Positions 2,395-39,077 of a stretch of DNA of 46,499 nucleotides are shown here, piece by piece. The position numbers were made by a program, and so were the translations under genes. The stretch's first letter is position 1. Every line of letters begins with the position of its first letter. The notes below the pieces were generated by a model. That model was not told the DNA's origin. It searched no databases and saw nothing but the letters and a program-made list of their open reading frames with translations. Source of the DNA: a virus; the IMG/VR virus record IMGVR_UViG_3300028559_001225, positions 1-46,499 of that record. One strand, written 5' to 3'.

Positions 2395-2760
2395 CTACTG
2401 TAAGAGGCCCCGCTCTATAAACTTCTCTACTGATTTAGTAGGCTTTAAAATATTTTTGAATATTTCTACAGCTTCTTCAGGAAAGCATAGATTAGAGCAT
2501 GTATAGCAATCAAATGCAACAAACCCAAATTCTGGATAAGTGTGTATAGAAAGATGAGATTCTTCAAGTAGCACTAGTACAGTTAGCCCCTGAGGCTCAA
2601 AATCTTTATGTATTACGTCAACAACTGTGGCCCCAGTTGCATTTGCGGCAAGCAAGCATAGTGATTTCATGAAAGGTAGATTATCTATGCGATCAGAGTC
2701 GCAACCCCAGAAATCAACTACGCAATGCTTGCCATAAGTGCCAAATGAATTTTGTTGCAT
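2395..2760 (-). CDS. speD: S-adenosylmethionine decarboxylase proenzyme (SpeD/SpeH class 1b)
   Basis: Pyruvoyl-dependent enzyme that normally makes decarboxylated AdoMet, the aminopropyl donor for spermidine. The 121-residue protein has the hallmark EESHLSIHTYPE. Self-cleavage is expected between Glu67 and Ser68, with Ser becoming the pyruvoyl group. Ser68, His73 and Cys88 keep the +5/+20 spacing of the Ser63/His68/Cys83 set of the Thermotoga enzyme. The usual YTCG is YTCS here. The ATG at 2760 is chosen over one at 2778 because GGAGGG precedes it and because TAATG overlaps the stop of the upstream gene, suggesting coupled translation. It is last in the replication operon. No spermidine synthase is visible, so it may act with host SpeE or have shifted substrate, as pyruvoyl relatives can. 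Confidence 0.93.
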   Translation of the reverse strand: MQQNSFGTYGKHCVVDFWGCDSDRIDNLPFMKSLCLLAANATGATVVDVIHKDFEPQGLTVLVLLEESHLSIHTYPEFGFVAFDCYTCSNLCFPEEAVEIFKNILKPTKSVEKFIERGLLQ

Positions 2761-4181
2761 TAATATATTTCCCTCCACTGAGCTGTAACCGCAGCTTTTG
2801 CGCGCACGTTTCCTGTTTCTGTTGTTTTTACAGATATAATATATACTTCAGAATTTGTAGAGTCATAATTTTGAACAATAAAGTTCTTTTTTGAATCAGT
2901 TGCAGAGGGTATTCCAGCAACTCCTTGACTATTTGCAGAACCACCAGCTGGAATGACTACAGAAGATAATACATTTATTACAGTAGTAGAGCCAGTAAAC
3001 GCAGCAGCATCAATGGAATATTCAACAACACTATTTGTATTTACTGAAACCCAAGTTAATGAGGAAGTTCCGCCAGCATTGACTAAATAACTTGCATCTG
3101 GAATTTTTATAATTTCAACATAACTTGAATTGTCTTGTATGTGTGCAGTAATATTATTTAATTTTACAGTTGCTCTATTTGGATAGCCTTGATAGGTATC
3201 TTTTAGTCTAAATGCAAGCACTGGAAATCTAGAGGCACCAGTTGTCGATGTTTGTCTTAGTGACCCACTATCAATAGACCAATCAATTCCGCTTTGTATA
3301 TATCCACCTTCTGCCATAACAGAAGAACATATTTGAGAGAAGCTTGCACTTGCTGATATAGCTGCAGTATTTACAATTTCGCATCGAACTGGCAGGTTTG
3401 GATTAGCGATATACACAGTATTATCGAAGTTTGAGTGATAGTATTCATGCGCAACTATATATTCACCATTATGCACGAATCCACATCTAACTCTACCAAC
3501 TCCGAGCCATTGAAAATCTATAAATATTAGCTGCGCTTTAGATATATTGAGATTAAATTCACTCTTGCCAGTCCCATCGCAACGATCAATATTCCATTGA
3601 CTTTGTGGTATTCGCGTACCAACCTCTGATGCTGTTCCAGTAACATACGATCGTATAACCCAATTTAATGTACCAGCATCTGTACCGTTTGATGTTGGAA
3701 GTCCTACCTGTTCAAAATAGATTCCATCTCTATCATCAAAGTATCCAGTTCTTTTTGTAACATTCGCTTCTGCATATCCAAAATTAAATGAACTTAAAAT
3801 TAATTGTGACTTGCCAGGTTGATAGTGATGGTATAATTTTGTTTGATGTATTACATATGAACCACTACTAGTGCCCGTTGCCAATGTTGCAGCTGCTTGA
3901 TTTAAGGCAAAAGAGACTGTGCCACTAGCACTTACAGAATCTAAAAAGTTTGGGTCAATTGCATATAAATGCTTATAGTCTCCAAGAGTAAGTGGTTCGC
4001 TCACTCTCGCTCTACCAAATGCATCTACACTTCCATTATCTCCTGTACTACCAACACTAACAACTCTAATAGCATCTTGAGAAAGTTCAAGAACATCCGA
4101 ACGTTCGTTTTCTTCGCCAATAAAGTAGGCGCTCTGTGGTGGATAACTTATCGCCAGCTCAGGTCCTGAAATCTCTACCAT
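2760..4181 (-). CDS. Putative virion structural protein (tail or fibre associated)
   Basis: 473 residues, rich in Ser, Thr, Asn and aromatics, with predicted beta-type sequence and no catalytic motif I can see. The middle (about residues 190-270: NIDRCDGTGKSEFNL, FIDFQWLGVGRVRCGF, NLPVRCEI) resembles a protein type I associate with virion structural proteins of many uncultured phages; that is recall, not a search. GGGGGAGA precedes the ATG by 4 nt and the gene starts 11 nt after recJ. The stop overlaps speD. A structural gene between recJ and speD is odd, because replication operons rarely carry one. Alternative: a carbohydrate-binding protein used in adsorption. Confidence 0.55.
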   Translation of the reverse strand: MVEISGPELAISYPPQSAYFIGEENERSDVLELSQDAIRVVSVGSTGDNGSVDAFGRARVSEPLTLGDYKHLYAIDPNFLDSVSASGTVSFALNQAAATLATGTSSGSYVIHQTKLYHHYQPGKSQLILSSFNFGYAEANVTKRTGYFDDRDGIYFEQVGLPTSNGTDAGTLNWVIRSYVTGTASEVGTRIPQSQWNIDRCDGTGKSEFNLNISKAQLIFIDFQWLGVGRVRCGFVHNGEYIVAHEYYHSNFDNTVYIANPNLPVRCEIVNTAAISASASFSQICSSVMAEGGYIQSGIDWSIDSGSLRQTSTTGASRFPVLAFRLKDTYQGYPNRATVKLNNITAHIQDNSSYVEIIKIPDASYLVNAGGTSSLTWVSVNTNSVVEYSIDAAAFTGSTTVINVLSSVVIPAGGSANSQGVAGIPSATDSKKNFIVQNYDSTNSEVYIISVKTTETGNVRAKAAVTAQWREIY

Positions 4182-16426: not shown

Positions 16427-17362
16427 TTATGTTTTATTTTTTAGATACCAATCATATGTTATTTTTAATCCTTCTTCTAGTTTGGTTTTAGAAGTCCAAC
16501 CTAATGACGCCAATTTTTCTACATTTAAAACTTTTTTAGGGGTTCCATTTGGCTGGTTTAAGTCCCAAACTGCGAATCCATTAAACCCAACAATTTTAGA
16601 AATAATATCTGCTAGATTTTTAATTGTTATTCCAATTCCAGTTCCAACATTTATAATTTCTGAATCATTATAATTTAACATACAAAAAATAGCGGCATCT
16701 GCCAAATCATCAGCAAACATAAACTCTCTTATTGGGGATCCATCTCCCCAAAGATTAACGCTGGCGGCTCCAGATTTTTTTGCATCATGAAACTTTTTAA
16801 TTAAAGCTGGTATAACATGAGAGCTATTTAGGTCAAAATTATCATTAAATCCATAAAGATTTGTGGGCATTAATGATATAGCATTAAAATTATATTGCTG
16901 TTTTAATGATTGACACGCAACTATACCTGCTATTTTAGCAATAGCATAAGAATCATTTGTTTCTTCAAGAGAACCAGTTAATAACTCAGATTCTTTTATT
17001 GGTTGTCGAGCGAATTTTGGATATATACAAGAAGAACCTAAAAATAATAATTTTTTAACTTGACTTTTATGAGAAGTTTGAATAACATTATTTTGAATAT
17101 TTAAATTATCTAAAATAAAATCAGCCTTATAGTTTTTATTTGCCAATATTCCTCCAACTTTTGCTGCGCTTAAAAATACATATTCTGGCTGTTCTTCTCT
17201 AAAAAAGGCTCTAACATCTTTTTGATTTCTCAAATCCAATTCATCTCTAGTTCTGAGAACCAAATTTCTATAACCTTCTTCTTTTAGCTTTCTAACAATT
17301 GCTGAGCCTACAAGTCCTTTGTGACCAGCTACAAAAATTCTAGAATCCCTGTTCATTTTCAC
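16427..17362 (-). CDS. fcl: GDP-L-fucose synthase (epimerase/reductase)
   Basis: 311 residues, short-chain dehydrogenase fold. NAD(P)-binding GHKGLVGSA lies near the N-terminus, SAAKVGGI and LGSSCIYP are family signatures, and the catalytic pair is in YAIAK. Converts GDP-4-keto-6-deoxymannose to GDP-L-fucose. It follows gmd with a 23-nt overlap, giving the two-step pathway. The start is either GTG at 17362 (AAGGA 5 nt upstream) or ATG at 17356. The product would feed the GT10 fucosyltransferase encoded at 24184-25047. Confidence 0.95.
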
Positions 17363-18353
17363 ACATATCCTTTACTAAATTCTTAAATGAAGTTTTTGGA
17401 TACCATCCTAAAATTCTACGCGCCTTATCTGAATCGCCTAATAGGGTCTCAACTTCAGCTGGTCTGAAATATTTTGGATTAACTCGTATAATAGTTTTTC
17501 CAGTATTAGTATCAATACCTACTTCATCTAAGCCTTGACCTTGCCATTCAATATTTATGCCAAAGTAGGGCGCTGCTTCAACTACAAAATCACGAACTGA
17601 ATATTGTTTTCCTGTAGCAATTACAAAATCTTGAGGGTGCTTTTGTTGTAACATAAGCCACATCGCTTCTACAAAATCTTGTGCATGCCCCCAATCCCTG
17701 AGTGCATTTAAATTACCCAGTTGCAATTCTTTTTGAGTGCCTTCTGAAATTGCCTTCAATCCCATAGTAATTTTACGAGTAACAAATGTTTCCCCTCTAC
17801 GTGGAGATTCATGATTAAAAAGAATTCCTGTGCAAGCATATAGACCATATGACTCTCTATAATTTTTTGTTATCCAATATGCATACATTTTAGCAACTCC
17901 ATAGGGAGAGCGTGGATAAAAAGGAGTAGTTTCACGCTGTGGTGTTTCTTGCACAAGTCCAAAGAGTTCAGATGTTGAAGCTTGATATATTTTAGTTTTA
18001 TTTTCAAGATTCAAAATTCTTACTGCTTCTAAAATTCTTAGGGTTCCCAATGCATCAACTTCTCCAGTATACTCTGGAATCTCAAAAGAAACTTTCACAT
18101 GGCTTTGGGCGCCCAAATTATAAATCTCATCTGGTTGAATTTGCTGTATAACTCTAATAAGACTTGATTGATCAGTTAAGTCGCCATAATGTAACTTAAG
18201 ATTTGGATTATTATATAAATGGTCAATTCTTTTTGTGTTTATAGAAGAAGACCTTCTAATGATACCATGGACCTCATAGTTTTTACTTAATAATAGTTCA
18301 GCTAAGTACGAGCCATCCTGCCCTGTGATTCCAGTTATTAATGCTTTTTTCAT
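17340..18353 (-). CDS. gmd: GDP-mannose 4,6-dehydratase
   Basis: 337 residues, the usual length. [14 protein letters not shown] at the N-terminus, [30 protein letters not shown] and the [10 protein letters not shown] catalytic Tyr/Lys are diagnostic. Converts GDP-mannose to GDP-4-keto-6-deoxymannose. First gene of the operon driven by the promoter at 18380-18408; AGGAGG precedes the ATG. GDP-mannose must come from the host. The keto intermediate could also feed other deoxysugars, relevant because a 3-dehydrase is encoded at 21964-23289. Confidence 0.97.
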
Positions 18354-19095: not shown

Positions 19096-20037
19096 TTACC
19101 AAATAAATTTTTCTTTATTAAATTCCACTATTCTTTTTAATTCATCATCAAAATTTGCATTGGGCTGCCACCCCAGATTTCTTAGCTTATCATCATTGAT
19201 TGAGTATCTGACATCTTGGCCAGGCCTTGTATAATTAAAATCTAAATATTTTTCAAAATTATTATCATTTAAATAAAAGTATATTAATTTTTCTAAAACA
19301 TTTATATTCTTATCTTCATAATTGCCACCAATATTAAAAATTTCATTTACAACTTCAGATTCAATAATACGAATAATGGCTTGGGCAGTATCTTTAACAT
19401 GAAGCCAAGTGCGCATTGGTTGACCTTGCTCATGAACAGGAATTTTTCTTCCTAATGAAATATATTTGCAAGATTTTGGAATCAATTTCTCTGGATTTTG
19501 TCGGATGCCATAATTATTTGATGGGCGCACGATAACATAAGGAACTTTATATGTTCTGGCCCAGGCTAGTACTAACATATCTGCGGATGCCTTTGTTGCT
19601 GAGTATGGGTTGGAAGGTTTCAACAAATCAGTTTCCACATGGGCACTTCCTATATTGTCTCCATAAACTTCGTCTGTACTAAAATGTAGCAATGTGGGCA
19701 TCTTATATCTATGTTTATTTTTTATAAGTTGCAATAAATTATGAACTCCATTGACATTTGTTTTTATGAATTCAACTGAGTCTTCGATCGAATTATCAAC
19801 ATGGGTTTCTGCAGCTGTATTTATTATATAATCACAGTCATATAAAAATTGAAGGTCATTTATATCTGATTTTATAAATTTAAATGAATCATTTTGTGAA
19901 AATTTTTCTATTAAATCTTCATGGGCCGCATACGTTACTTTATCAACACCTATAACTTTCCATCCTTTTTCTAAGCACATTTCTGTTATATGAGAGCCAA
20001 TGAAGCCGAGGCAGCCAGTAATATAAACTACTTTCAT
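19096..20037 (-). CDS. rmlB: NDP-glucose 4,6-dehydratase (RmlB-like)
   Basis: 313 residues. ITGCLGFIGSH cofactor loop, VDKVTYAA, NTAAETHVDNSI, HFSTDEVYGD and YSATKASADML (catalytic Tyr/Lys) are diagnostic of dTDP-glucose 4,6-dehydratases. The product is a 4-keto-6-deoxy sugar, the entry point to rhamnose and dideoxysugars. No nucleotidylyltransferase RmlA or epimerase RmlC is visible, so host substrate pools must be used. True nucleotide preference (dTDP, UDP or CDP) cannot be read by eye; this matters because the E1-like enzyme at 21964 classically uses CDP-sugars. It overlaps the upstream reductase by ATGA. Confidence 0.9.
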   Translation of the reverse strand: MKVVYITGCLGFIGSHITEMCLEKGWKVIGVDKVTYAAHEDLIEKFSQNDSFKFIKSDINDLQFLYDCDYIINTAAETHVDNSIEDSVEFIKTNVNGVHNLLQLIKNKHRYKMPTLLHFSTDEVYGDNIGSAHVETDLLKPSNPYSATKASADMLVLAWARTYKVPYVIVRPSNNYGIRQNPEKLIPKSCKYISLGRKIPVHEQGQPMRTWLHVKDTAQAIIRIIESEVVNEIFNIGGNYEDKNINVLEKLIYFYLNDNNFEKYLDFNYTRPGQDVRYSINDDKLRNLGWQPNANFDDELKRIVEFNKEKFIW

Positions 20038-20822
20038 ATTATATACTGTTTCATTCCTTCCTCTAAGCCTTGAAACTTAAAATTAAAATTATTAAGAGTT
20101 TCAGAGCAACCTGTGTAGTTTTTATAATCTTCTTCAAATGAAATTTTACATTTTAAATTGTGGAAATTTTTAAAAAAAGTTACGATTTCTTTGAGGGTTT
20201 TCTTTTCTTTATAAACTATATTAACATCTTTTATTTCAGGGGAGTTTTCGATAAAATATTCAAAGATTGGAATTAAATCGCGGGCATAAAAAAAATCAAA
20301 ATGTCTATTTTTAATTATAATCTGATTATCATTTATAATTTTATCAAATAATATATTTTTTGAATTTGAAAAGCAACCAAATAATCGCAATGTATAGAAG
20401 TTATTAGCTGATAAAGATATATTAGATATAATATTTTTACTTAGACCATAATGATCTACTGGTCTAATATATTTTATTTCTATTTCTTTTTTTAAATTAA
20501 TTGAATATCTTCTATCATATTCTGCACCAGAACCTAAATTTATAAGTTTGCCAAATAAATCTCTTTGATAATATAAATTAAAGAAAATATTTAAATTTTG
20601 ATTAAAAGATTCAACATTAAAAACCTTTAAATCTCTTTCAAGACTTCCAGCGCAATTTATAATAATTTCTGGGCTATGCGTCTTTAATAAATTTGTTACT
20701 GAGTTAAAATTAGTTAAATCACACTCTGTTCTTGAAATTGGAACTATATTATATGGTAAATTATTTAATAAAAAACTTCCCAAAAATCCTTTTGAGCCAA
20801 GCAGTAGAATTTTATTTTCCAT
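20034..20822 (-). CDS. NAD-dependent sugar reductase/epimerase (RmlD-like SDR)
   Basis: 262 residues. LLLGSKGFLGSFLL nucleotide-binding loop, ECDLTN, IIINCAG and YGLSKN (active-site Tyr/Lys) mark an extended short-chain dehydrogenase. The overall plan resembles dTDP-4-keto-sugar reductases, a final step in deoxysugar synthesis. Very AT-rich, like its neighbours at 19-26 kb. It probably reduces a keto sugar made by the RmlB-like enzyme encoded next or by the E1/TPP pair upstream. Overlaps the TPP subunit gene by 11 nt. Confidence 0.75.
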   Translation of the reverse strand: MENKILLLGSKGFLGSFLLNNLPYNIVPISRTECDLTNFNSVTNLLKTHSPEIIINCAGSLERDLKVFNVESFNQNLNIFFNLYYQRDLFGKLINLGSGAEYDRRYSINLKKEIEIKYIRPVDHYGLSKNIISNISLSANNFYTLRLFGCFSNSKNILFDKIINDNQIIIKNRHFDFFYARDLIPIFEYFIENSPEIKDVNIVYKEKKTLKEIVTFFKNFHNLKCKISFEEDYKNYTGCSETLNNFNFKFQGLEEGMKQYII

Positions 20823-21345
20823 AATCTGGAAATTCCACTAAGATAGTACTTTTATTTTTATAGTATGCATCTTTATATTCATCTAGTATTTTTTCTGGAT
20901 TTTTCAATTCAACTATATCTATATTCTTACACATCAATCTAAATGCATCAGAGAAATTTCCTTTATGTTGATCTTGTGGGTCAACTGGAATTTCTGACCC
21001 TACCGCAACACGCACTATAACCTTTGGATTATATTCTCCGTCGCTCATGAAATATAGTTTATCTAAATGATTTACAAGTTGATCTGTTGCACAGATAAGG
21101 AAGTTCCATCTTGGAAATACAGAGATTGGGACAAATCCATTTAGCGCCATTCCTACACTAAAGCCTAGTTGAAAATTCTCAGCCACAGGAAATTCTAGTC
21201 TTTTATCATCTGATATTTTTTGCAATGTATCAAACATTCCAGTACCTCCCCATGAAACAGATTGACCAATAAATAAAGTATCGCTTTGCTCGGAGAGCCA
21301 TATCATGGCCTCTTCTAATTTTTCTTTATAATATTGTTGTGTCAA
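20812..21345 (-). CDS. Thiamine-diphosphate enzyme, pyrimidine-domain subunit (E1-beta/transketolase-like, compact)
   Basis: 177 residues, equal to only the pyrimidine (PYR) domain of E1-beta or transketolase (full beta chains are about 325). FIGQSVSWGGTGMFDTL, then PVAENFQLGFSVGMAL with the Glu that activates the cofactor, and FPRWNFLICATDQLVNHLDK fit that family. The C-terminal transketolase domain is absent. It starts at TTG (21345) with AAGGAGG 8 nt before it; TTGA overlaps the alpha gene stop. It should pair with the 206-residue subunit upstream to form one active site. Placement beside an E1-type sugar dehydrase suggests C2-unit transfer onto a sugar. Confidence 0.82.
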   Translation of the reverse strand: MTQQYYKEKLEEAMIWLSEQSDTLFIGQSVSWGGTGMFDTLQKISDDKRLEFPVAENFQLGFSVGMALNGFVPISVFPRWNFLICATDQLVNHLDKLYFMSDGEYNPKVIVRVAVGSEIPVDPQDQHKGNFSDAFRLMCKNIDIVELKNPEKILDEYKDAYYKNKSTILVEFPDYGK

Positions 21346-21962
21346 AACTGTATCCTCCTTCCAGCGCCCGCATGAGGATATTTTGTATTGGTATATTTAT
21401 AATATATTAAATTAGGCTGTTCGACCCAATTTGCTACATTCGGTATATACCATGGCTTATCTCTGCCCCAAATTAAATCTGTTGGAGTAGTAACTGATAG
21501 GCCGTTATCTTCTACGACAAATGTTATGGGCAGGTTATGATTAACTGAGTATTTATATGCTTCATGGAAGGCACCTGTTTCAGCGCTCATATCACCCAGC
21601 CAACACCATACCTTTGAATCTTCTTCTTTTCTTTTTATAGATTCAGCTATTCCAACAGCAATAGATGGAATTCCTCCAACAATAGAAGAGCAGACAATTT
21701 TGTACTCGTTTAAATTCATTACCATACTCTTTCCCTCAACTATTTTTGATAATAATTCGTCTGGGGGTACGCCCTTTAACAGGCATTGATAATGATTTCT
21801 CCAAGTGCAACAAACCCAATCATTTTTTACATCTACTCTTTCAAAGACTTTTTGAATTTGTTGCTCGTTATTATAGTATAAATGTATGGGTGCTTTAATT
21901 TCCGCATTATTAAATTTTTCAGCAACTAAACTTTCAAACTGTATCAAATTTTCTTTATCCAT
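21342..21962 (-). CDS. Thiamine-diphosphate enzyme, pyrophosphate-domain subunit (E1-alpha-like)
   Basis: 206 residues. The thiamine-diphosphate/Mg motif is GDMSAETGAF...VVEDN, the GDG-x(n)-NN signature with D at both ends. IVGGIPSIAVGIAESIKR precedes it as in E1-alpha proteins. Shorter than pyruvate dehydrogenase E1-alpha (about 330), lacking phosphorylation-loop and E2-binding regions, so not a standard dehydrogenase complex. The ATG at 21962 (AGGAG at 8 nt) is chosen over upstream in-frame codons that overlap the dehydrase gene, whose stop lies 1 nt upstream. Confidence 0.85.
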   Translation of the reverse strand: MDKENLIQFESLVAEKFNNAEIKAPIHLYYNNEQQIQKVFERVDVKNDWVCCTWRNHYQCLLKGVPPDELLSKIVEGKSMVMNLNEYKIVCSSIVGGIPSIAVGIAESIKRKEEDSKVWCWLGDMSAETGAFHEAYKYSVNHNLPITFVVEDNGLSVTTPTDLIWGRDKPWYIPNVANWVEQPNLIYYKYTNTKYPHAGAGRRIQF

Positions 21963-21963
21963 T

Positions 21964-23289
21964 TTATATACTCCTAAAAAATTCATCAACACATTGTCCA
22001 ATATAATCAATTTGTTCAGGTGTTATAACGGGACTAGTTCCATGAAAAAATGTATCAAGTGTAACTTTTGTTGCATTTGGGTACTTGTGCAAATCCTTTG
22101 CTATATCAGCATACGCTGGTTGCAACATAATGTTACCTGCAAAATATGGTCTAGTTTGAATTTTTTTATCTTCTAAGAAGTCAATATACTTTGCCCTAGA
22201 AAAAGGTGCTACATCTTTTATAGTAAGTGGAAAAGCAAACCAGCTGGGAACACTGCCATTTGTAGCTTTTGGTAGAAAGAAAAAATCCTCATATTTTTCA
22301 TATATAGCAAAAAGTAAGTTGTAATTTCTAATTCTTAAATTTGTTATTGTTTCTAATTTTTCCAACTGCTGTAATCCCATAGAGGCCTGAAGTTCGATTG
22401 GCTTTAGATTGTATCCAATTTCTTCATATACATATTTATGGTCAAATATTTCATTGGGCATTGATGGTAGCCAGTTGCTAAATCTCTTATTACATGTTCC
22501 ACATTTTAAAGTATTTGCTTTTGGTCCTACGCAATAACAACCACGACCCCATTCTCTAAAACTTCTTAGAATGGTTTCTTGCTCTTTTGTATTACACGAA
22601 ACAAAGCCACCTTCGCCCATTGTAATATGATGTGCGGGATAGAAACTACAGGAGGCCATCTCTCCAAAGCTTCCCAATGGCTTACCTTGAAATGTTGAGC
22701 CAAGTGCATCACAGCAATCTTCTAATAAAATTAAGTTGTATTTTTTTACCAGATCCATGACGCGATTCATATTCGGCGGATTACCTAAAACATGAGCAAA
22801 TGTAATTACTTTAATATCATTTTCTTGTAGAGCTTTTTCAGCTTGATCTAAATCTATATTTAAAGTTTCTAGTTCTATATCTACAAATATAGGTTCAAAT
22901 CCAACTTGTAGAATAGGATTCAATGTTGTGGGAAATCCAGCAACAGGCACAAGAACTTTTGTTCCTTTGGGAAAATTATGTCCATTTTTACTTGTAAGAC
23001 TTGTCATCATGAGTAGATTGGCACTCGATCCACTATTTGTCAGTATTCCATAGCTCTTATCAAAAAATCTAGGAAACTTACTTTCAAATTTTAGAGAATC
23101 TGAACCCATCACCAGCCAACCATTTAATAAACTTTGGACTGCGGCCACATATTCAGAGTGGTCAAAGTACGAACCTGCATAGTTAACATAATCTTTTCCA
23201 GCAGTCCAAGTTTTTGTAGCTTGTTTTTCTTCTATATACTCTTGTATTAAATTTAAAATATTATTTAATTTACTATCTCCAATATGCAT
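21964..23289 (-). CDS. rfbH: E1-type sugar 3-dehydrase (RfbH/AscC/DdhC-like; PMP and [2Fe-2S])
   Basis: 441 residues, aspartate-aminotransferase fold of the DegT/StrS group but with the dehydrase signature. SFYPAHHITMGEGG has His220 where aminotransferases have the PLP lysine, as in Yersinia E1. Cys193, Cys251, Cys253 and Cys266 fall exactly at the iron-sulfur ligand spacing I recall for E1 (C-x57-C-x1-C-x12-C). E1 with a reductase (E3) removes the C3 hydroxyl of 4-keto-6-deoxy sugars, giving 3,6-dideoxyhexoses. No E3 gene is visible. The ATG at 23289 follows GGAGA and overlaps the upstream gene by 17 nt. Sugar nucleotide specificity is not readable. Confidence 0.92.
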   Translation of the reverse strand: MHIGDSKLNNILNLIQEYIEEKQATKTWTAGKDYVNYAGSYFDHSEYVAAVQSLLNGWLVMGSDSLKFESKFPRFFDKSYGILTNSGSSANLLMMTSLTSKNGHNFPKGTKVLVPVAGFPTTLNPILQVGFEPIFVDIELETLNIDLDQAEKALQENDIKVITFAHVLGNPPNMNRVMDLVKKYNLILLEDCCDALGSTFQGKPLGSFGEMASCSFYPAHHITMGEGGFVSCNTKEQETILRSFREWGRGCYCVGPKANTLKCGTCNKRFSNWLPSMPNEIFDHKYVYEEIGYNLKPIELQASMGLQQLEKLETITNLRIRNYNLLFAIYEKYEDFFFLPKATNGSVPSWFAFPLTIKDVAPFSRAKYIDFLEDKKIQTRPYFAGNIMLQPAYADIAKDLHKYPNATKVTLDTFFHGTSPVITPEQIDYIGQCVDEFFRSI

Positions 23290-24187
23290 AATTTGTCTCC
23301 AGAGAACTATATTGATTTTTTCTTTGTGGCTCATCTATTTGCAAAGGATATATCCAATGTTCGTTCATCATTTCGTGCCAACCAAAATAAATTTCATGAT
23401 TCATCCATCTATTACCTTTTATACCAAAAAATAATTGCAATATACCACCTGTTTGAATCCCAACCTTACCATTTTCTTTTGCAAAATTAGCATATAATGC
23501 AGATTGTTGAGATACTGCTGAAAGAAGAATATCGTAGTCATACGTTTGAATTTTGGCTTTTATATATTCAACAGTATCTTCCCATGAGTTACAATTAGGA
23601 TATTGTCTATCATCTAATAAGGGATGAAGTGGCGCTCTAATACAATCCACCAATTCAAAAGGAACTATGTTATTTTTATTCTCACCCCATACTAAATCAA
23701 TCTTTTCCCATTGTCTAAGTATGCTTTCGTAGTGTGGACTTATGACCAGTACCTTTTTGTCCTTCAAATTTTTTGTCCAAGGTTCTTCTGGTTTGCCAAA
23801 TTTTGCCCCAAGAAGAAGACACCCTGGGTCTAACACATGATAACTATCGCCAGTAAAAAAAACTGGCTTATCTTTAAATTTTTCTAAGAATCTATGATTG
23901 TGCCTTAATTCTTCGCCCACATCAACAAAACCTAGAATATCAGATTTTAATGCAGCATCTAAAACTTTTGGCAATACTTTTTGATAAGCATATTCCATTG
24001 TTGGAGGATATATTCCAGCCTCAACAAGAACACTAGTATTCCAAATAGATTCAAAGGGTCTAGCCCCCATATCTTGAAAGGATAAAACATGGCCTACCGT
24101 ATTATCAATTCTTACTATAGAAAAAGATTTATTTTCTTTTATCCAATTTGAAATAAGTGTGTTTATTTCAAAAAAATTATTGCTCAT
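23273..24187 (-). CDS. Putative GT-D fold glycosyltransferase
   Basis: 304 residues. An opening RIDNTVGHVLS, then WNTSVLVEAGIYPP, KSDILGFVDVGEE, FFTGDSYHVLDPG, KKVLVISPHYESI and GKVGIQTGGILQLFFGIKG resemble GT-D type (DUF1792-like) glycosyltransferases, where the first acidic residue binds the donor. Recognition is from general pattern, so moderate. It lies between the GT10 gene (ATGA overlap) and the dehydrase, so it may transfer the unusual deoxysugar. Confidence 0.6.
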   Translation of the reverse strand: MSNNFFEINTLISNWIKENKSFSIVRIDNTVGHVLSFQDMGARPFESIWNTSVLVEAGIYPPTMEYAYQKVLPKVLDAALKSDILGFVDVGEELRHNHRFLEKFKDKPVFFTGDSYHVLDPGCLLLGAKFGKPEEPWTKNLKDKKVLVISPHYESILRQWEKIDLVWGENKNNIVPFELVDCIRAPLHPLLDDRQYPNCNSWEDTVEYIKAKIQTYDYDILLSAVSQQSALYANFAKENGKVGIQTGGILQLFFGIKGNRWMNHEIYFGWHEMMNEHWIYPLQIDEPQRKNQYSSLETNYAYWR

Positions 24188-25047
24188 ATAATACCTCTTG
24201 AGATTAAAATTTTCCTTAAAAAGTCATATAGAGGGCCTAGTGTTGGCATATCGTCAAATACAAATTCACGAACAATTCTTGCGAATGAATCTTTATTTTT
24301 TTCAAGATAGTCTATATATTTATAAAAATTTTCTAAATCTAAAAAATTTTTATAATTTATAAAGCTCAAACTATTGAAATCTTTTCTCACAGAATCGTGT
24401 CCAAAATATAGTGGAACTGTACCAGCAACTTTAGCCTCAAGAACCTTTTCTGTTATATAGCCATTTGAAAGTGCATTTTCAAAGCAAATATTGAATCTAA
24501 AATTTTTCAACAATTCAATTTTGGAACCCGCAAATGGATTGTTAAATACAGAGCCAAATCCATATACAGGTTTATACTGATTCAATTTATTTGCAACTTC
24601 TAATCTATTGGGAACAGGATTACCAATAACAATGCTACAAAAGTATGGTCTATTCCAAACCTCATCCACATCCCATTGATACAATAGGTCAGACTTCTTT
24701 ATTTCTGCATGAATAAAATTAGGCTCATCCCACCAATTAATATATAAATACCAATGAGGAAGTCTAAAGTTTCTTCCATCGTGTGTATCAAAGTCAAAAG
24801 ATAAAGAGTAGTCATAGTTAATTAGATTAGGAGATTTATTTTCACCTGTATAAAATATTTTTATTGCCTTGTCATTTTTTACAGATTCAATTCTTTTTCC
24901 GAATGTAGCACCAAGTATTAAATCTGCTTCTTCTGGAGAGGAATTAAAGTTAATCTCTTTATCATTCAATAAGTCTTTAAAAACTAGATTAAACCAGTTA
25001 GAATGTACATCGAAGCCTGGCCACATATCAATATAAGAGATGTTCAT
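24184..25047 (-). CDS. GT10-family (alpha-1,3) fucosyltransferase
   Basis: 287 residues. The C-terminal GDP-fucose motif FNICFENALSNGYITEKVLE followed by AGTVPLYFG and FNSLSFINYKNF is the GT10 signature. The N-terminal acceptor domain is short, as in bacterial enzymes. It matches the gmd-fcl pair downstream, which makes its donor GDP-L-fucose, so synthesis and transfer of fucose are both phage-encoded. The ATG at 25047 is chosen over 25059 because GGAGG lies 5 nt before it. Confidence 0.88.
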   Translation of the reverse strand: MNISYIDMWPGFDVHSNWFNLVFKDLLNDKEINFNSSPEEADLILGATFGKRIESVKNDKAIKIFYTGENKSPNLINYDYSLSFDFDTHDGRNFRLPHWYLYINWWDEPNFIHAEIKKSDLLYQWDVDEVWNRPYFCSIVIGNPVPNRLEVANKLNQYKPVYGFGSVFNNPFAGSKIELLKNFRFNICFENALSNGYITEKVLEAKVAGTVPLYFGHDSVRKDFNSLSFINYKNFLDLENFYKYIDYLEKNKDSFARIVREFVFDDMPTLGPLYDFLRKILISRGII

Positions 25048-25048
25048 T

Positions 25049-25759
25049 TTAACCTCCAAAATAATGGACTAATTCATCTTTATAAAATCTTATAGTATGA
25101 ATAGTGGTTTGTAAGTTCTGATCGCACTTTTCAATAAGATATTGCATTTCTTTATATGCTTCTTCTTGTGCATAACCAGTGCCTTGGGGGTGCTGAACTG
25201 TATAATTATAATCTCTTATAACCAATCTTTTTTGTAAAAAAGAATTGGCACATAATAAAAGATCGAGGCCCCAACCATATTTTAAATGAGTTAATTGTGG
25301 CACAGCATTTTTCAAAATACTTAATACATCTTTATGTATCATCCATACTGTACAGTCTGGATTTGATACAACTTTTAAATTCTCGTATTGTTTGAATTGT
25401 ATTGTATTTACATCTGCATTATTTGCGCTGTACCAAGTATAGTCTACGTTGGGCGCATAAATACCCCATCCAAATTCATCAAAATATTTTATTCCATCTT
25501 TTACTAAATCCTGCCACTTATCAAAAGTAATATCACCTTGAATATGAAAAAATATATCTCCATCAAATAATTCAATTGCTTTTAAAAATTGATGAGCAAA
25601 GTAAGATTCTTCACCTATATTTACCCATTCGTCTTTTTTATTATTATCATCGCTATTTATGACAGTTACCTTATCAAAAATATTCTTTAAATCAGATTCA
25701 ATTTTACAAGTTTTTTCATATTGGCCTCGCCAATTAAATATAAAAGGTTGTATGTTCAT
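25049..25759 (-). CDS. Glycosyltransferase (GT-A/GT2-like)
   Basis: 236 residues. DGDIFFHIQGDITFDKW contains the likely donor-binding acidic site near residue 85-95; CTVWMIHKDVL and KYGWGLDLLLCANSF follow as acceptor-side motifs seen in GT2-like enzymes. ATG 25759 follows GGAGA at 5 nt and lies 2 nt after the upstream gene. Donor unknown. Confidence 0.7.
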   Translation of the reverse strand: MNIQPFIFNWRGQYEKTCKIESDLKNIFDKVTVINSDDNNKKDEWVNIGEESYFAHQFLKAIELFDGDIFFHIQGDITFDKWQDLVKDGIKYFDEFGWGIYAPNVDYTWYSANNADVNTIQFKQYENLKVVSNPDCTVWMIHKDVLSILKNAVPQLTHLKYGWGLDLLLCANSFLQKRLVIRDYNYTVQHPQGTGYAQEEAYKEMQYLIEKCDQNLQTTIHTIRFYKDELVHYFGG

Positions 25760-25761
25760 GT

Positions 25762-26457
25762 TTATCTCCAAGGCACTTGTAAGTTATAGGGATTTCCATA
25801 TTGAACAGAGCTTTCATTTCCAATAACTTGCGAGCCTTGAATTGCGATTGGGGGCTCAAGCCAAAATACTGCAACTTTATTATTTCTTACTGCATTTGTA
25901 AATTCTTCATCAATAGGTAATTTAATTTGCTTCAAGTTCTCATGAAAATGTTTTATAGCTGTTCGATTGAATATTAGACTATCAGCGCATCTAAATTGAT
26001 CAACTGGGGATAATATAACTTGCTGACCATCTGACTGCAATCTAAGCCCCATACCACAACCAATAGAAATGCAATTAAAGTCAACGTCTTGGACTGTCCT
26101 CATAATTTCATTCATAATTAAAATAAAATTAGGGTGAAGAATTACATCACTTTCTAAAATTAAAATTTTATCATAGCTCTTATTATATGCATCTTCAAAT
26201 ACCTTTAAAAAATTTATTGCAATAGAAGCTTCTGAATTTCTAATTGGGTAGCCAGTTCTCCATGGATATAATGATTCTAATGTCCCATCTCTTACTACGT
26301 ATTGATTTACTTCATCTTCTGATAGCTCAGTGCCCCATTTATAAAACTCAATGCTGCCTTTTATACTATTAGTTGATAGCCAATTAGCCCAATTATCGTA
26401 TCGTTCTTTTTCAAATTTTTCAGAACAAATTATATAAACCCAATCTAGATTAATCAT
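25762..26457 (-). CDS. Glycosyltransferase, family-25-like
   Basis: 231 residues. SEASIAINFLKVFEDAY followed by DKILILESDVILHPNF (acidic donor site near 100) and later CADSLIFNRTAIKHF...LPIDEEF and FWLEPPIAIQGSQ reproduce the order of motifs in GT25 (LPS galactosyltransferase-type) proteins. It starts with ATGA overlap with the nucleotidyltransferase gene. Acceptor probably a polysaccharide or glycoprotein. Confidence 0.78.
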   Translation of the reverse strand: MINLDWVYIICSEKFEKERYDNWANWLSTNSIKGSIEFYKWGTELSEDEVNQYVVRDGTLESLYPWRTGYPIRNSEASIAINFLKVFEDAYNKSYDKILILESDVILHPNFILIMNEIMRTVQDVDFNCISIGCGMGLRLQSDGQQVILSPVDQFRCADSLIFNRTAIKHFHENLKQIKLPIDEEFTNAVRNNKVAVFWLEPPIAIQGSQVIGNESSVQYGNPYNLQVPWR

Positions 26458-26885
26458 TTAGCACTCCATTTCTCCAGAATCCAACTTGAACTATTCTTCT
26501 TGTAGTCTCCACCAACTGCAAACTTAAAAGTTAAATTATCGTCTTTTATTGACATTTCTGGTATATTATCTTTTGTTCGATCGCCACCATTGGCGAATAT
26601 AATGTGCTTAGTTGTAAATAGTTTTCTTACCTTTATAATAGCATCTTTTGCTGAATTATCTGTATCGTCAAAATGTAAAACCAAATCAACCATTCTTAAA
26701 TTAGAAATAACAGATTCTCGCTCATCCCAAGTTAAAAAAGGCTTACCCTTTTTTCGTGTAAGCCATTCATCACTATTTATTCCAACTACTAAAAAGTCTC
26801 CCAATGCTTTTGCCGCATTGAAATAAGCTATATGTCCCGAATGAATAGGGTCAAAACCACCTGTTACAAGAACTATTGTTTTCAT
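26454..26885 (-). CDS. Cytidylyltransferase-fold sugar/alcohol-phosphate nucleotidyltransferase (HldE-C/TagD-like)
   Basis: 143 residues. TGGFDPIHSGHIAYFNAAK has the HxGH active site of this fold, and IIFANGGDRTKDNIPE gives the second nucleotide-binding segment. At this length it resembles the heptose-1-phosphate adenylyltransferase half of HldE or glycerol-3-phosphate cytidylyltransferase. It activates a phosphorylated sugar or polyol for one of the downstream transferases. The exact substrate is not decidable by eye; heptose is attractive because S-layer glycans of some Bacillota contain it. Confidence 0.82.
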   Translation of the reverse strand: MKTIVLVTGGFDPIHSGHIAYFNAAKALGDFLVVGINSDEWLTRKKGKPFLTWDERESVISNLRMVDLVLHFDDTDNSAKDAIIKVRKLFTTKHIIFANGGDRTKDNIPEMSIKDDNLTFKFAVGGDYKKNSSSWILEKWSAK

Positions 26886-37301: not shown

Positions 37302-37330
37302 ATTATATCATGGTTGAGGTGATTTGTCAA
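37302..37330 (-). promoter_or_regulatory. Sigma-A promoter
   Basis: TTGACA (37330-37325), 17 nt, TATAAT (37307-37302), extended CATGA and downstream TATTATATAA. The TGA of the -35 is the stop codon of the upstream GT4 gene. Drives 37271 and 37011. Confidence 0.92.
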
Positions 37331-38343
37331 TTATTTTTGGTTACTAGGTTGGCTATGAACTTGTCTGTCGCTGCGGCCCACGAATAATTATCTTTTACCC
37401 ATTGAGCGCAGATCTCTACATTTGTATCTTTCAAACGAGCTGCTTTATATACAGCGCTTTCCAGATTATCGCTCAATGCTGCAACCTCGGGACTCAGTAT
37501 CCCTCTATTGATTTCTGTGTCGAATGCAGCTACTGGAGTGCCGCAAGAAATAGATTCAATCATCACAAGTCCAAATGTATCTGTGATGCTAGGAAAAACA
37601 AAGCATGAAGCGTTTGCATAGAGTGGGGGTAGCTCCATCTGTGTTCGCGCACCCAGCCAGTCTACACGTGGATACTCTTTCTTTAACCATGGCAATTGAG
37701 GCCCGTCGCCCACAACTTTTTTACCATAAGGAACATCCAAGTCTAGAAATGCTTGCAGATTTTTTTCTGCACTAACTCTGCCCACATATAATATATATGG
37801 AACGCCTGTCGGTTTGATGTGTGAAGTATTAAATATATCTGTATTTACACCGCGAGACCACACAACTGTATTGTGTATATCATAACTAGCCAGCTCATCT
37901 TTCATAGCTGGAGTAGTGACAAATACATTAGAAGATGCCCCATGAAACCAACGTAGATAAGCATAAGTTAGTTCTTCTGGCAAACCTATTAGATTCTTGA
38001 TATATTCTGGAAACTTTGTATGGTAGGCAGTAGTGAATGGAAAGTCGTTCTTTTTACACCAACTGCGAGCGATCATTCCTAGAGTACCTTCTGTTGCAAT
38101 ATGAAGTATATCTGGTTTAATATATTGCATCAATTTGGAAAAGAGTAGTGCTGATTGAACTGGCTCGGCAATTTGTATCTCTGGATAAAACCAGAGTGGG
38201 AAGGTAGTAAAGTACTCAGAGTTTATAACATGAACTTCATACCCTCTATTCTCTAGCTCTCTCTTTGTGTTGAGTAGGGTTACTACGACACCATTTATTT
38301 GGGGCGTCCACGCATCAGTAACAATTACTATTTTCCTGCCCAT
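37327..38343 (-). CDS. GT4-family glycosyltransferase (mannosyl/glycolipid type)
   Basis: 338 residues, GT-B fold. The N-terminal VTDAWTPQINGVVVTL and VGRVSAEKNLQAFLDL then FGLVMIESISCGTPVAAF (donor-binding Glu motif) place it with GT4 enzymes related to GDP-mannose-dependent alpha-mannosyltransferases and glucosyl-diacylglycerol synthases. The upstream gene (16-nt overlap) is an LpxH-like phosphoesterase; such pairs occur together in Gram-negative genomes. Membrane-associated lipid glycosylation is inferred. Confidence 0.85.
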   Translation of the reverse strand: MGRKIVIVTDAWTPQINGVVVTLLNTKRELENRGYEVHVINSEYFTTFPLWFYPEIQIAEPVQSALLFSKLMQYIKPDILHIATEGTLGMIARSWCKKNDFPFTTAYHTKFPEYIKNLIGLPEELTYAYLRWFHGASSNVFVTTPAMKDELASYDIHNTVVWSRGVNTDIFNTSHIKPTGVPYILYVGRVSAEKNLQAFLDLDVPYGKKVVGDGPQLPWLKKEYPRVDWLGARTQMELPPLYANASCFVFPSITDTFGLVMIESISCGTPVAAFDTEINRGILSPEVAALSDNLESAVYKAARLKDTNVEICAQWVKDNYSWAAATDKFIANLVTKNN

Positions 38344-39077
38344 ATATTACCATCCTTGTCAAGGAGATACATCTTGCCATTCCAATCTTCTACAATGCAC
38401 GTACATGACTCTACCCAATCGCCTGTATTATAATAGGTGATATCGCCTAGTTGCTTTATTGCAGCTTGATGTATATGACCGCACAATATGGCATTATAAC
38501 CATTCTTTTCACACTCGTGAATAATAGCTAGCTCAAAGTTACTTATGAAATTTACAGCTTGCTTTACGTGCCTCTTTACATTCGCACTTAAGCTCCAATA
38601 TGGAAGCCCTAGTTTGCGCCGCAACCAATTTAAACTGCTGTTTAATCCAATAAGTATTTCATAACCCCAGCTGCCTAGAACAGCAAGCCAGCGAGCGTAG
38701 CGAGTTATACCATCAAACTTGTCGCCATGTAGTACCAATATTTCGCGGCCGTCAGCAGTACGATGCACACACTCATTTACTATCTCTATATCTCCTAGTG
38801 TGTAGCCATCAAACTTTCGTAGATACTCATCGTGATTCCCAGGGATCAGAAACACTGATGTACCCTCGGCTGCCTGTGCAATCACATGAGCTAGCACTTC
38901 GTTAAACGCAGAGTTCCAATATAGCTTGGCTTGAAGCCGCCAAAAATCTATAAAGTCGCCTACGATGTATAGCTGGTCTGAACTATTGTTTTGTAAAAAG
39001 TGAAGTAGCGCCGCTGCCTGTGAACTTTTAGTACCCATGTGGACATCTGAAATCCAGATCGTTCGCCATTTATTCAT
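38328..39077 (-). CDS. Metallophosphoesterase, UDP-2,3-diacylglucosamine hydrolase (LpxH)-like
   Basis: 249 residues. Calcineurin-type metal motifs: ISDVHMG, VGDFIDFW, IPGNHDEYL, LHGDKFD and CGHIHQA in order. GDFIDFW with LPYWSLSANVKRHVKQAV is characteristic of the LpxH-like group. LpxH hydrolyses UDP-diacylglucosamine in lipid A synthesis, but the relatives paired with GT4 genes have other, unknown substrates. Its presence in a phage with Gram-positive signals is unexpected. Overlaps the GT4 gene. Confidence 0.85.
   Translation of the reverse strand: MNKWRTIWISDVHMGTKSSQAAALLHFLQNNSSDQLYIVGDFIDFWRLQAKLYWNSAFNEVLAHVIAQAAEGTSVFLIPGNHDEYLRKFDGYTLGDIEIVNECVHRTADGREILVLHGDKFDGITRYARWLAVLGSWGYEILIGLNSSLNWLRRKLGLPYWSLSANVKRHVKQAVNFISNFELAIIHECEKNGYNAILCGHIHQAAIKQLGDITYYNTGDWVESCTCIVEDWNGKMYLLDKDGNIWAGK

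Follow-up and report, generated by a model that had tools for sequence, protein, structure and literature searches.

The viral sequence IMGVR_UViG_3300028559_001225 from IMG/VR (positions 1 to 46,499 of that record, called the window below) carries a minus-strand cassette with the gene order E1, alpha, beta, SDR (short-chain dehydrogenase/reductase) and RmlB-type 4,6-dehydratase, and this cassette probably encodes a phage pathway to a C4-branched 3,6-dideoxy sugar (Table 1). A first-pass annotation had located at 20812-23289 an E1-type iron-sulfur sugar dehydrase and two small genes for a thiamine diphosphate (ThDP) enzyme, and had suggested that their combined activities would lead to a 3,6-dideoxy, possibly branched, sugar. 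These coordinates are right and the three genes are real, all on the minus strand, and the suggested product is strongly supported by comparison rather than by chemistry. To that set are now added the SDR and the RmlB-type enzyme, which complete the pathway in cis. The cassette is widespread in phages and not particular to the phage of the window.

The E1-Type 3-Dehydratase

With 452.7 bits, E1 scores above the cut-off of the RfbH equivalog model (423), while most full-length bacterial RfbH members reach roughly 670-760 bits, which indicates that the phage protein belongs to a divergent clade. Its best match in the PDB is the E1 protein of Yersinia (3bcx, 355 bits), with which it aligns end to end. 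Like that enzyme, it is predicted to use pyridoxamine 5'-phosphate (PMP) and an Fe-S cluster. The position of the catalytic Lys is occupied by a His, and the earlier assignment of this residue to position 220 is confirmed, within the motif YPAHH. The four cysteines attributed to the cluster are present as well: C193, C251, C253, and C266 align with those of E1, and almost all RfbH-type relatives in phages share them. Three of the four are spaced as in E1, as claimed, but the last gap differs: the arrangement is C-X57-C-X1-C-X12-C, with X12 where Yersinia E1 has X7. An additional cysteine, C263, is variable among relatives.

A Compact ThDP Enzyme in Two Chains

As the first-pass annotation held, the two small genes encode the pyrophosphate-binding (PP) and pyrimidine-binding (PYR) halves of one ThDP enzyme. 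By Pfam, the pair corresponds to E1_dh, which alpha matches at 1.8e-14, and Transket_pyr. The catalytic residues are present (Glu56 and His126 in beta, GDM(123)...N153 in alpha), and in a homologue from cyanophage S-SM2 alpha and beta are fused as a single protein of 402 aa. The structural modeling that had been recommended gave for alpha an AlphaFold model with a predicted local distance difference test (pLDDT) score of 88.8, whose closest folds are the E1-alpha chains of pyruvate dehydrogenase (PDH). Beta, the TTG start codon of which overlaps the alpha stop, resembles PDH E1-beta across the PYR domain only and has no transketolase C-terminal domain. Full-length PDH E1 alpha/beta identity is not supported, the scores being far under the cut-offs of the PDH models, nor does the pair match the TPP_enzyme_N/M/C domains of a YerE-type single chain.

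Exactly three ThDP superfamilies are listed as accepting ketones, namely the decarboxylase type (YerE), transketolase, and alpha-keto-acid dehydrogenase 2 (alpha-KADH2) (PMC12247030). With branching enzymes of the alpha-KADH2 type, the window pair has in common two chains homologous to E1 alpha/beta, with the ThDP motif and the catalytic Glu and His; it departs from them in that the transketolase C-terminal domain is absent from its 177-aa beta chain. For these enzymes, transfer of an acetyl group from pyruvate to a keto sugar has been either proposed or shown, and pyruvate is the characterized donor of the two-subunit, PDH-like ones (PMC4802897; PMC12247030). Together with the sequence and fold of the pair, for which PDH E1 is the nearest relative, and with a window cassette in which there are no donor-supply genes, this makes it the less probable alternative that the pair takes a donor other than pyruvate, such as hydroxypyruvate or a hydroxy-2-oxo acid, and builds a longer or hydroxylated branch. 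That alternative finds support in the hydroxylated 2-keto acids that serve as donors for ErwE and MMAR_2332 (PMC12247030), and in the split-transketolase modules of related phages (see below), which suggest hydroxyacetyl transfer from the same slot.

Exchange of ThDP Modules Behind E1

A scan with an E1 alignment yielded at least 599 viral stretches, 595 of which encode relatives, while a scan with the single E1 sequence yielded 15 loci only. The slot after E1 was analyzed in the 80 viral loci closest to the window E1, a sample chosen by E1 alone and biased towards the window protein. Exactly one ThDP module follows E1 in 63 of them: a YerE-like single chain in 20, alpha-beta in 17, a split transketolase in 16, and a split YerE-like protein in 10. 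One locus holds two classes, and strict mutual exclusivity was rejected because such loci, though few, exist. The structure closest to the phage YerE-like protein is that of JanthE (8rph), a ketone-accepting YerE-like ligase (PMC12188165). Comparison strongly supports the earlier proposal that the logic is that of yersiniose pathways and only the ThDP enzyme another one: depending on the relative, the slot holds a YerE-like enzyme, a split transketolase, or the window pair.

The exchanges have a sharp border. For all 28 pairs of loci that differ in module while their E1 proteins are at least 90% identical, the DNA homology breaks off at a point from -10 to +9 bp relative to the E1 stop. On the E1 tree, the distribution of the four classes requires at least 30 module changes, to be compared with 37 for shuffled labels and a minimum of 3, and well-supported branches alone force 9, 8, 5, and 5 changes for the four classes. 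Between L233 and L212, for instance, the stretch from rmlB to E1 has about 80% DNA identity, alpha-beta-SDR is replaced, and homology returns directly downstream. The closest E1 relative of the window lies in L178, whose order (gt240, GT10, GTx304, E1, X, SDR, rmlB, gmd) is that of the window, with a split transketolase in slot X. Among the split-transketolase loci with good flanks, RmlB is found in 38/40 and E1 in 21/40, which makes RmlB, and not E1, the partner that stays constant in these loci.

As all three ketone-accepting superfamilies alternate in one slot behind a 3-dehydratase, formation of a C-C bond at the C4 ketone is the most economical function for the module. In the YerE-like loci L184, L229, and L238, the module is followed by an acetaldehyde dehydrogenase and a 4-hydroxy-2-oxovalerate aldolase, both above cut-off, which, judging from their family assignments, would make 4-hydroxy-2-oxopentanoate, an ErwE-type donor and indeed one of those preferred by ErwE itself (PMC12247030). 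We lean towards the view that phages vary their glycans through the exchange of cassettes at the E1 3' end, swapping ketone-accepting ThDP ligases across superfamilies, sometimes along with genes for donor supply. Genes for an AroB-related cyclase, an HpcH/HpaI aldolase, or a NeuB-like synthase were also seen near phage E1/YerE-like loci (L209, L223, L243, L197, L203, L204), possibly for further donor or sugar pathways.

Whether the "lipopolysaccharide (LPS)" gene clusters of cyanophages are functional or serve as filler DNA has been left open, their function being unproven (PMC3037559). That the sugar genes described here are such filler seems very improbable, given that the active-site residues are invariant over a divergent set of phages and that functionally equivalent enzymes have replaced each other repeatedly with reading frames intact. 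For the question of whether phage "LPS" clusters are functional, the conserved active sites and the repeated like-for-like exchange of modules argue in favor of a function.

Linkage in Viral and Bacterial Loci

A scan of viral contigs, which come from uncultivated viruses and are in some cases short, gave 118 relatives of alpha, of which 80 were kept; they represent 62 distinct loci, 33 of them with good flanks. Beta and RmlB are present in all 33, SDR in 32, and the Fe-S E1 protein in 24, and any 3-dehydratase of the DegT family with the catalytic His is found in 30/33. Such His-type DegT proteins without the cysteines comprise ColD-like and RfbH-like forms. This linkage is difficult to reconcile with the idea that the ThDP pair belongs to a separate metabolism, as a decarboxylase or other keto-acid enzyme, and adjoins E1 by chance. 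ComDE is a two-chain keto-acid decarboxylase, and compact PP and PYR chains without a transketolase C-terminal domain do recall it, in architecture only; however, in addition to the constant presence of RmlB and the near-constant presence of a His-type 3-dehydratase, the pair is replaced at the same position by other ketone-accepting ThDP classes, and we regard a chance neighborhood as improbable.

Three further features of the phage loci may be mentioned. RfbH-like DegT proteins with the catalytic His but without Fe-S cysteines (FYASHVITAGG) occur in the alpha-beta cassettes of L022, L023, L024, L028, L029, L032, L038, L039, L063, and L075. A second His-type 3-dehydratase, ColD-like, is located near gmd/fcl homologues in L005, L007, L009, L010, L011, and L023. 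Queuosine-type genes (QueD-like and QueE-like by sequence only) flank many cassettes, including those of L066, L206, L233, and relatives.

In GTDB, the best 80 of 146 alpha relatives are at most 56% identical to the phage protein, and identities for bacterial alpha-beta are 47-56%. These relatives adjoin ColD-like DegT proteins, nearly all of which have His at the catalytic position, and their other neighbors include HddA/HddC/GmhA-like, Fcl-like, and radical-SAM genes. Taken together, the viral and bacterial loci indicate that the alpha-beta pair follows His-type 3-dehydratases in two different nucleotide-sugar contexts. A conserved bacterial cluster (loci L082-L161) combines the pair and a ColD-like 3-dehydratase with an HddA/HddC-like kinase and nucleotidyltransferase, GmhA, an Fcl-like SDR, and a B12/radical-SAM-like protein of roughly 515 aa. 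No alpha-beta pair was seen at any of 72 bacterial RfbH loci, viewed over 1.5 kb on either side. A bacterial source in GTDB for the RfbH-linked alpha was considered and set aside, the best 80 of 146 relatives being at most 56% identical and having ColD-type neighbors.

The 4,6-Dehydratase, the Nucleotide, and the SDR

The 4,6-dehydratase of the cassette scores 303.6 bits against TIGR01181, under the equivalog cut-off of 365.1, and it is called RmlB-type here by its motif and not as a proven RmlB. Its structure matches are PDB 2hun and other dehydratases specific for glucose linked to deoxythymidine diphosphate (dTDP). According to a published motif table, dTDP/UDP-glucose dehydratases have [ST]DE...YxxxK, whereas CDP-glucose dehydratases have [ST]DK (PMC8987622). 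The window enzyme has TDEVY, as do 73/73 relatives from phage cassettes; in contrast, the 4,6-dehydratase-like proteins beside bacterial RfbH have DK in 37/42 cases, no clear motif in 5/42, and DE in 0/42. These motifs point to a dTDP-linked route in phages, unlike the CDP-linked route of bacteria, and dTDP is most likely the nucleotide of the window pathway. For the phage E1 clade, we infer the use of dTDP-sugars from the partner 4,6-dehydratase. With a dTDP route, activation of glucose-1-phosphate can fall to the host, and a DdhA-like gene is unneeded.

Two other routes were considered. The CDP route is not the first choice, since a 4,6-dehydratase with [ST]DK is present in 0/80 viral E1 loci, against 37/42 near bacterial RfbH. 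A GDP route through the neighboring Gmd is possible for E1, but the adjacent 4,6-dehydratase that is always linked is RmlB-type, and the route is disfavored because Gmd and Fcl more simply feed the GT10 fucosyltransferase.

The SDR has intact motifs, with GxxGxxG for NAD(P) and conserved S98, Y125, and K129. Its model (pLDDT 94.8) resembles the C4-reductases MlghC, GDP-fucose synthase, and RmlD, and also other extended SDRs. This likeness would fit an enzyme that reduces C4 and thereby yields a plain 3,6-dideoxyhexose of the abequose or paratose type, leaving the ThDP pair to serve another sugar. We consider this unlikely, as the SDR is retained when the ThDP module differs (L190 versus L187), and most E1 loci have an adjacent ThDP module.

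Proposed Pathway

From the domain identities, the active-site residues, the linkage, and the exchange of modules, we infer the following scheme, including its donor, nucleotide, stereochemistry, and acceptor. The RmlB-type enzyme would convert host dTDP-glucose to dTDP-4-keto-6-deoxyglucose, from which the E1-type PMP/Fe-S enzyme would remove O3 to give a dTDP-4-keto-3,6-dideoxyhexose. As no dedicated E3 was seen, the electrons for this step are proposed to be supplied by ferredoxin or flavodoxin of the host, in the manner of SpnQ. Alpha-beta would then decarboxylate a 2-keto acid, of which pyruvate is the most likely, and join the resulting acyl anion to the ketone at C4. The product would be a tertiary alcohol that carries an acetyl branch, the ketone of which the SDR may reduce to a hydroxyethyl group. 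The enzyme of the ligation step would be a replaceable module, with YerE-like, split-YerE, or split-transketolase enzymes used in that slot by relatives. Lastly, neighboring glycosyltransferases would attach the sugar, along with L-fucose supplied by Gmd and Fcl, to an acceptor of the phage or the host.

Several observations weigh against this pathway. E1 of known function acts on a CDP-sugar. No ThDP module is in view in 16/80 viral E1 loci, alpha-beta occurs in only 18/80, and none of the ThDP modules accompanies the more distant RfbH homologues of cyanophages (0/80; about 40% identical). In 3/33 alpha loci, no His-type 3-dehydratase lies inside 8 kb, which, together with the presence of E1 in only about half of the split-transketolase loci, suggests that the ThDP step can do without 3-deoxygenation. 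No dedicated E3-type electron donor was recognized for E1, and a regular expression applied without a positive control found no plant-type ferredoxin motif, either in the window or across about 160 viral loci. On this last point, SpnQ, an Fe-S PMP 3-dehydratase that acts on a dTDP-sugar, works with general ferredoxin/flavodoxin reductases in place of E3 (PMC8987622), so that E3 is not obligatory for such enzymes.

Neighboring Genes and Acceptor

Table 1. Genes of the sugar cassette and of its surroundings in the window.
Gene product	Position	Strand	Size and basis of assignment
E1/RfbH-type PMP/[2Fe-2S] 4-keto-6-deoxyhexose 3-dehydratase	21964..23289	-	441 aa; NCBIfam NF011936, PDB 3bcx, H220, C193/C251/C253/C266
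Alpha, PP half of putative compact PDH-E1-like ThDP ligase	21342..21962	-	206 aa; Pfam E1_dh, fold match
Beta, the PYR half that complements alpha	20812..21345	-	177 aa; PDH E1-beta-like, Glu56, Gln-His126
SDR reductase, proposed ketoreductase of branch or C4	20034..20822	-	262 aa; Pfam Epimerase
RmlB-type dTDP(/UDP)-glucose 4,6-dehydratase	19096..20037	-	313 aa; TIGR01181, PDB 2hun, TDEVY
GDP-mannose 4,6-dehydratase (Gmd), neighboring GDP-L-fucose branch	17340..18353	-	TIGR01472 above cut-off
GDP-L-fucose synthase-like (Fcl), neighboring branch	16427..17362	-	NF047922 462 bits, just under cut-off 500
GT-D-like protein, probable glycosyltransferase	23273..24187	-	Pfam GT-D-like, weak; syntenic in L178 and others
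GT10 fucosyltransferase-like	24184..25059	-	Pfam Glyco_transf_10 and FucT_N

The window encodes phage-type proteins, including a virion structural protein, a DnaB-type helicase, a primase, a ribonucleotide reductase, a thymidylate synthase, a holin, and an endolysin; its first 16 kb gave no megablast match to isolated phages. The window proteins scanned included no flippase, polymerase, or initiating transferase, which would slightly favor an acceptor in the cytoplasm, for example a virion protein, over a host surface polysaccharide. The run of glycosyltransferases ends upstream with a small HldE-C/TagD-like nucleotidyltransferase (26454-26885, minus strand). A GT4-type glycosyltransferase beside a calcineurin-like phosphoesterase (37327-39077, minus strand) is distant from the sugar cassette, and an S-adenosylmethionine decarboxylase gene is found at 2395-2778 (minus strand; Pfam AdoMet_dc).

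Comparison with Known Systems

The individual parts of the cassette belong to known families. What appears to be new is the combination of genes, the presence of a compact PDH-like pair in a glycan pathway of a phage, and the replacement of one ThDP superfamily by another at a single gene border; no prior report of branched sugars in phages was found in the literature searched, which lay outside subscription journals. If the pathway is as proposed, near-identical phages would bear different C4-branched dTDP-dideoxy sugars and could switch serotype through a changed C-C bond chemistry, and, among enzymes of its kind, the PDH-like pair would be the first compact one to act on surface or virion glycans. 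This gives a concrete hypothesis for the variation of phage glycans, the swaps occurring as if to alter the shape of the sugar, and would supply a ready-made set of small, co-evolved enzymes for making chiral tertiary alcohols.

The closest parallel is the yersiniose pathway of Yersinia pseudotuberculosis, in which E1 is combined with YerE. The common logic consists of a 4,6-dehydratase, an E1-type 3-dehydratase, ThDP-dependent addition at C4, and ketoreduction. The Yersinia route runs on CDP-sugars, and its ThDP enzyme is a flavoprotein of one chain that resembles acetolactate synthase, whereas the phage has an RmlB-type (dTDP/UDP) enzyme and a compact PDH-like pair. Homologues of the ErwE/JanthE/YerE-like type fill the same slot in sister phages and differ from the window pair in ThDP superfamily. 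As for the deoxygenation step, SpnQ and the phage E1 protein are both Fe-S PMP 3-dehydratases, but the phage protein is related to RfbH/E1, and its own substrate would retain O2.

Two-subunit, PDH-like sugar-branching enzymes are found in antibiotic pathways, as illustrated by AviB1/B2, Plm8/9, and Pau11/12 (PMC4802897; PMC4425429). Like the phage pair, these enzymes and KbDH-alpha/beta have two chains related to PDH E1 alpha/beta. Pau11 and Pau12 have 325 and 345 aa (PMC4425429), in contrast to the phage chains of 206 and 177 aa without the transketolase C-terminal domain. In addition, alpha-KADH2-type branching enzymes make antibiotic sugars in actinomycetes, while the window pair sits in a phage cassette. 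Split-gene transketolases have been proposed to branch sugars in the miharamycin and amipurimycin pathways (PMC12247030), and pairs of this type occupy the same slot in other phages, but not in the window. A 2025 review tied YerE-like enzymes to LPS sugars and PDH-like and transketolase enzymes to antibiotics, and suggested viruses as a ground for searching (PMC12247030). In the phages described here, all three ThDP superfamilies appear to be interchangeable within one pathway, which would follow a dTDP-type instead of a CDP-type route.

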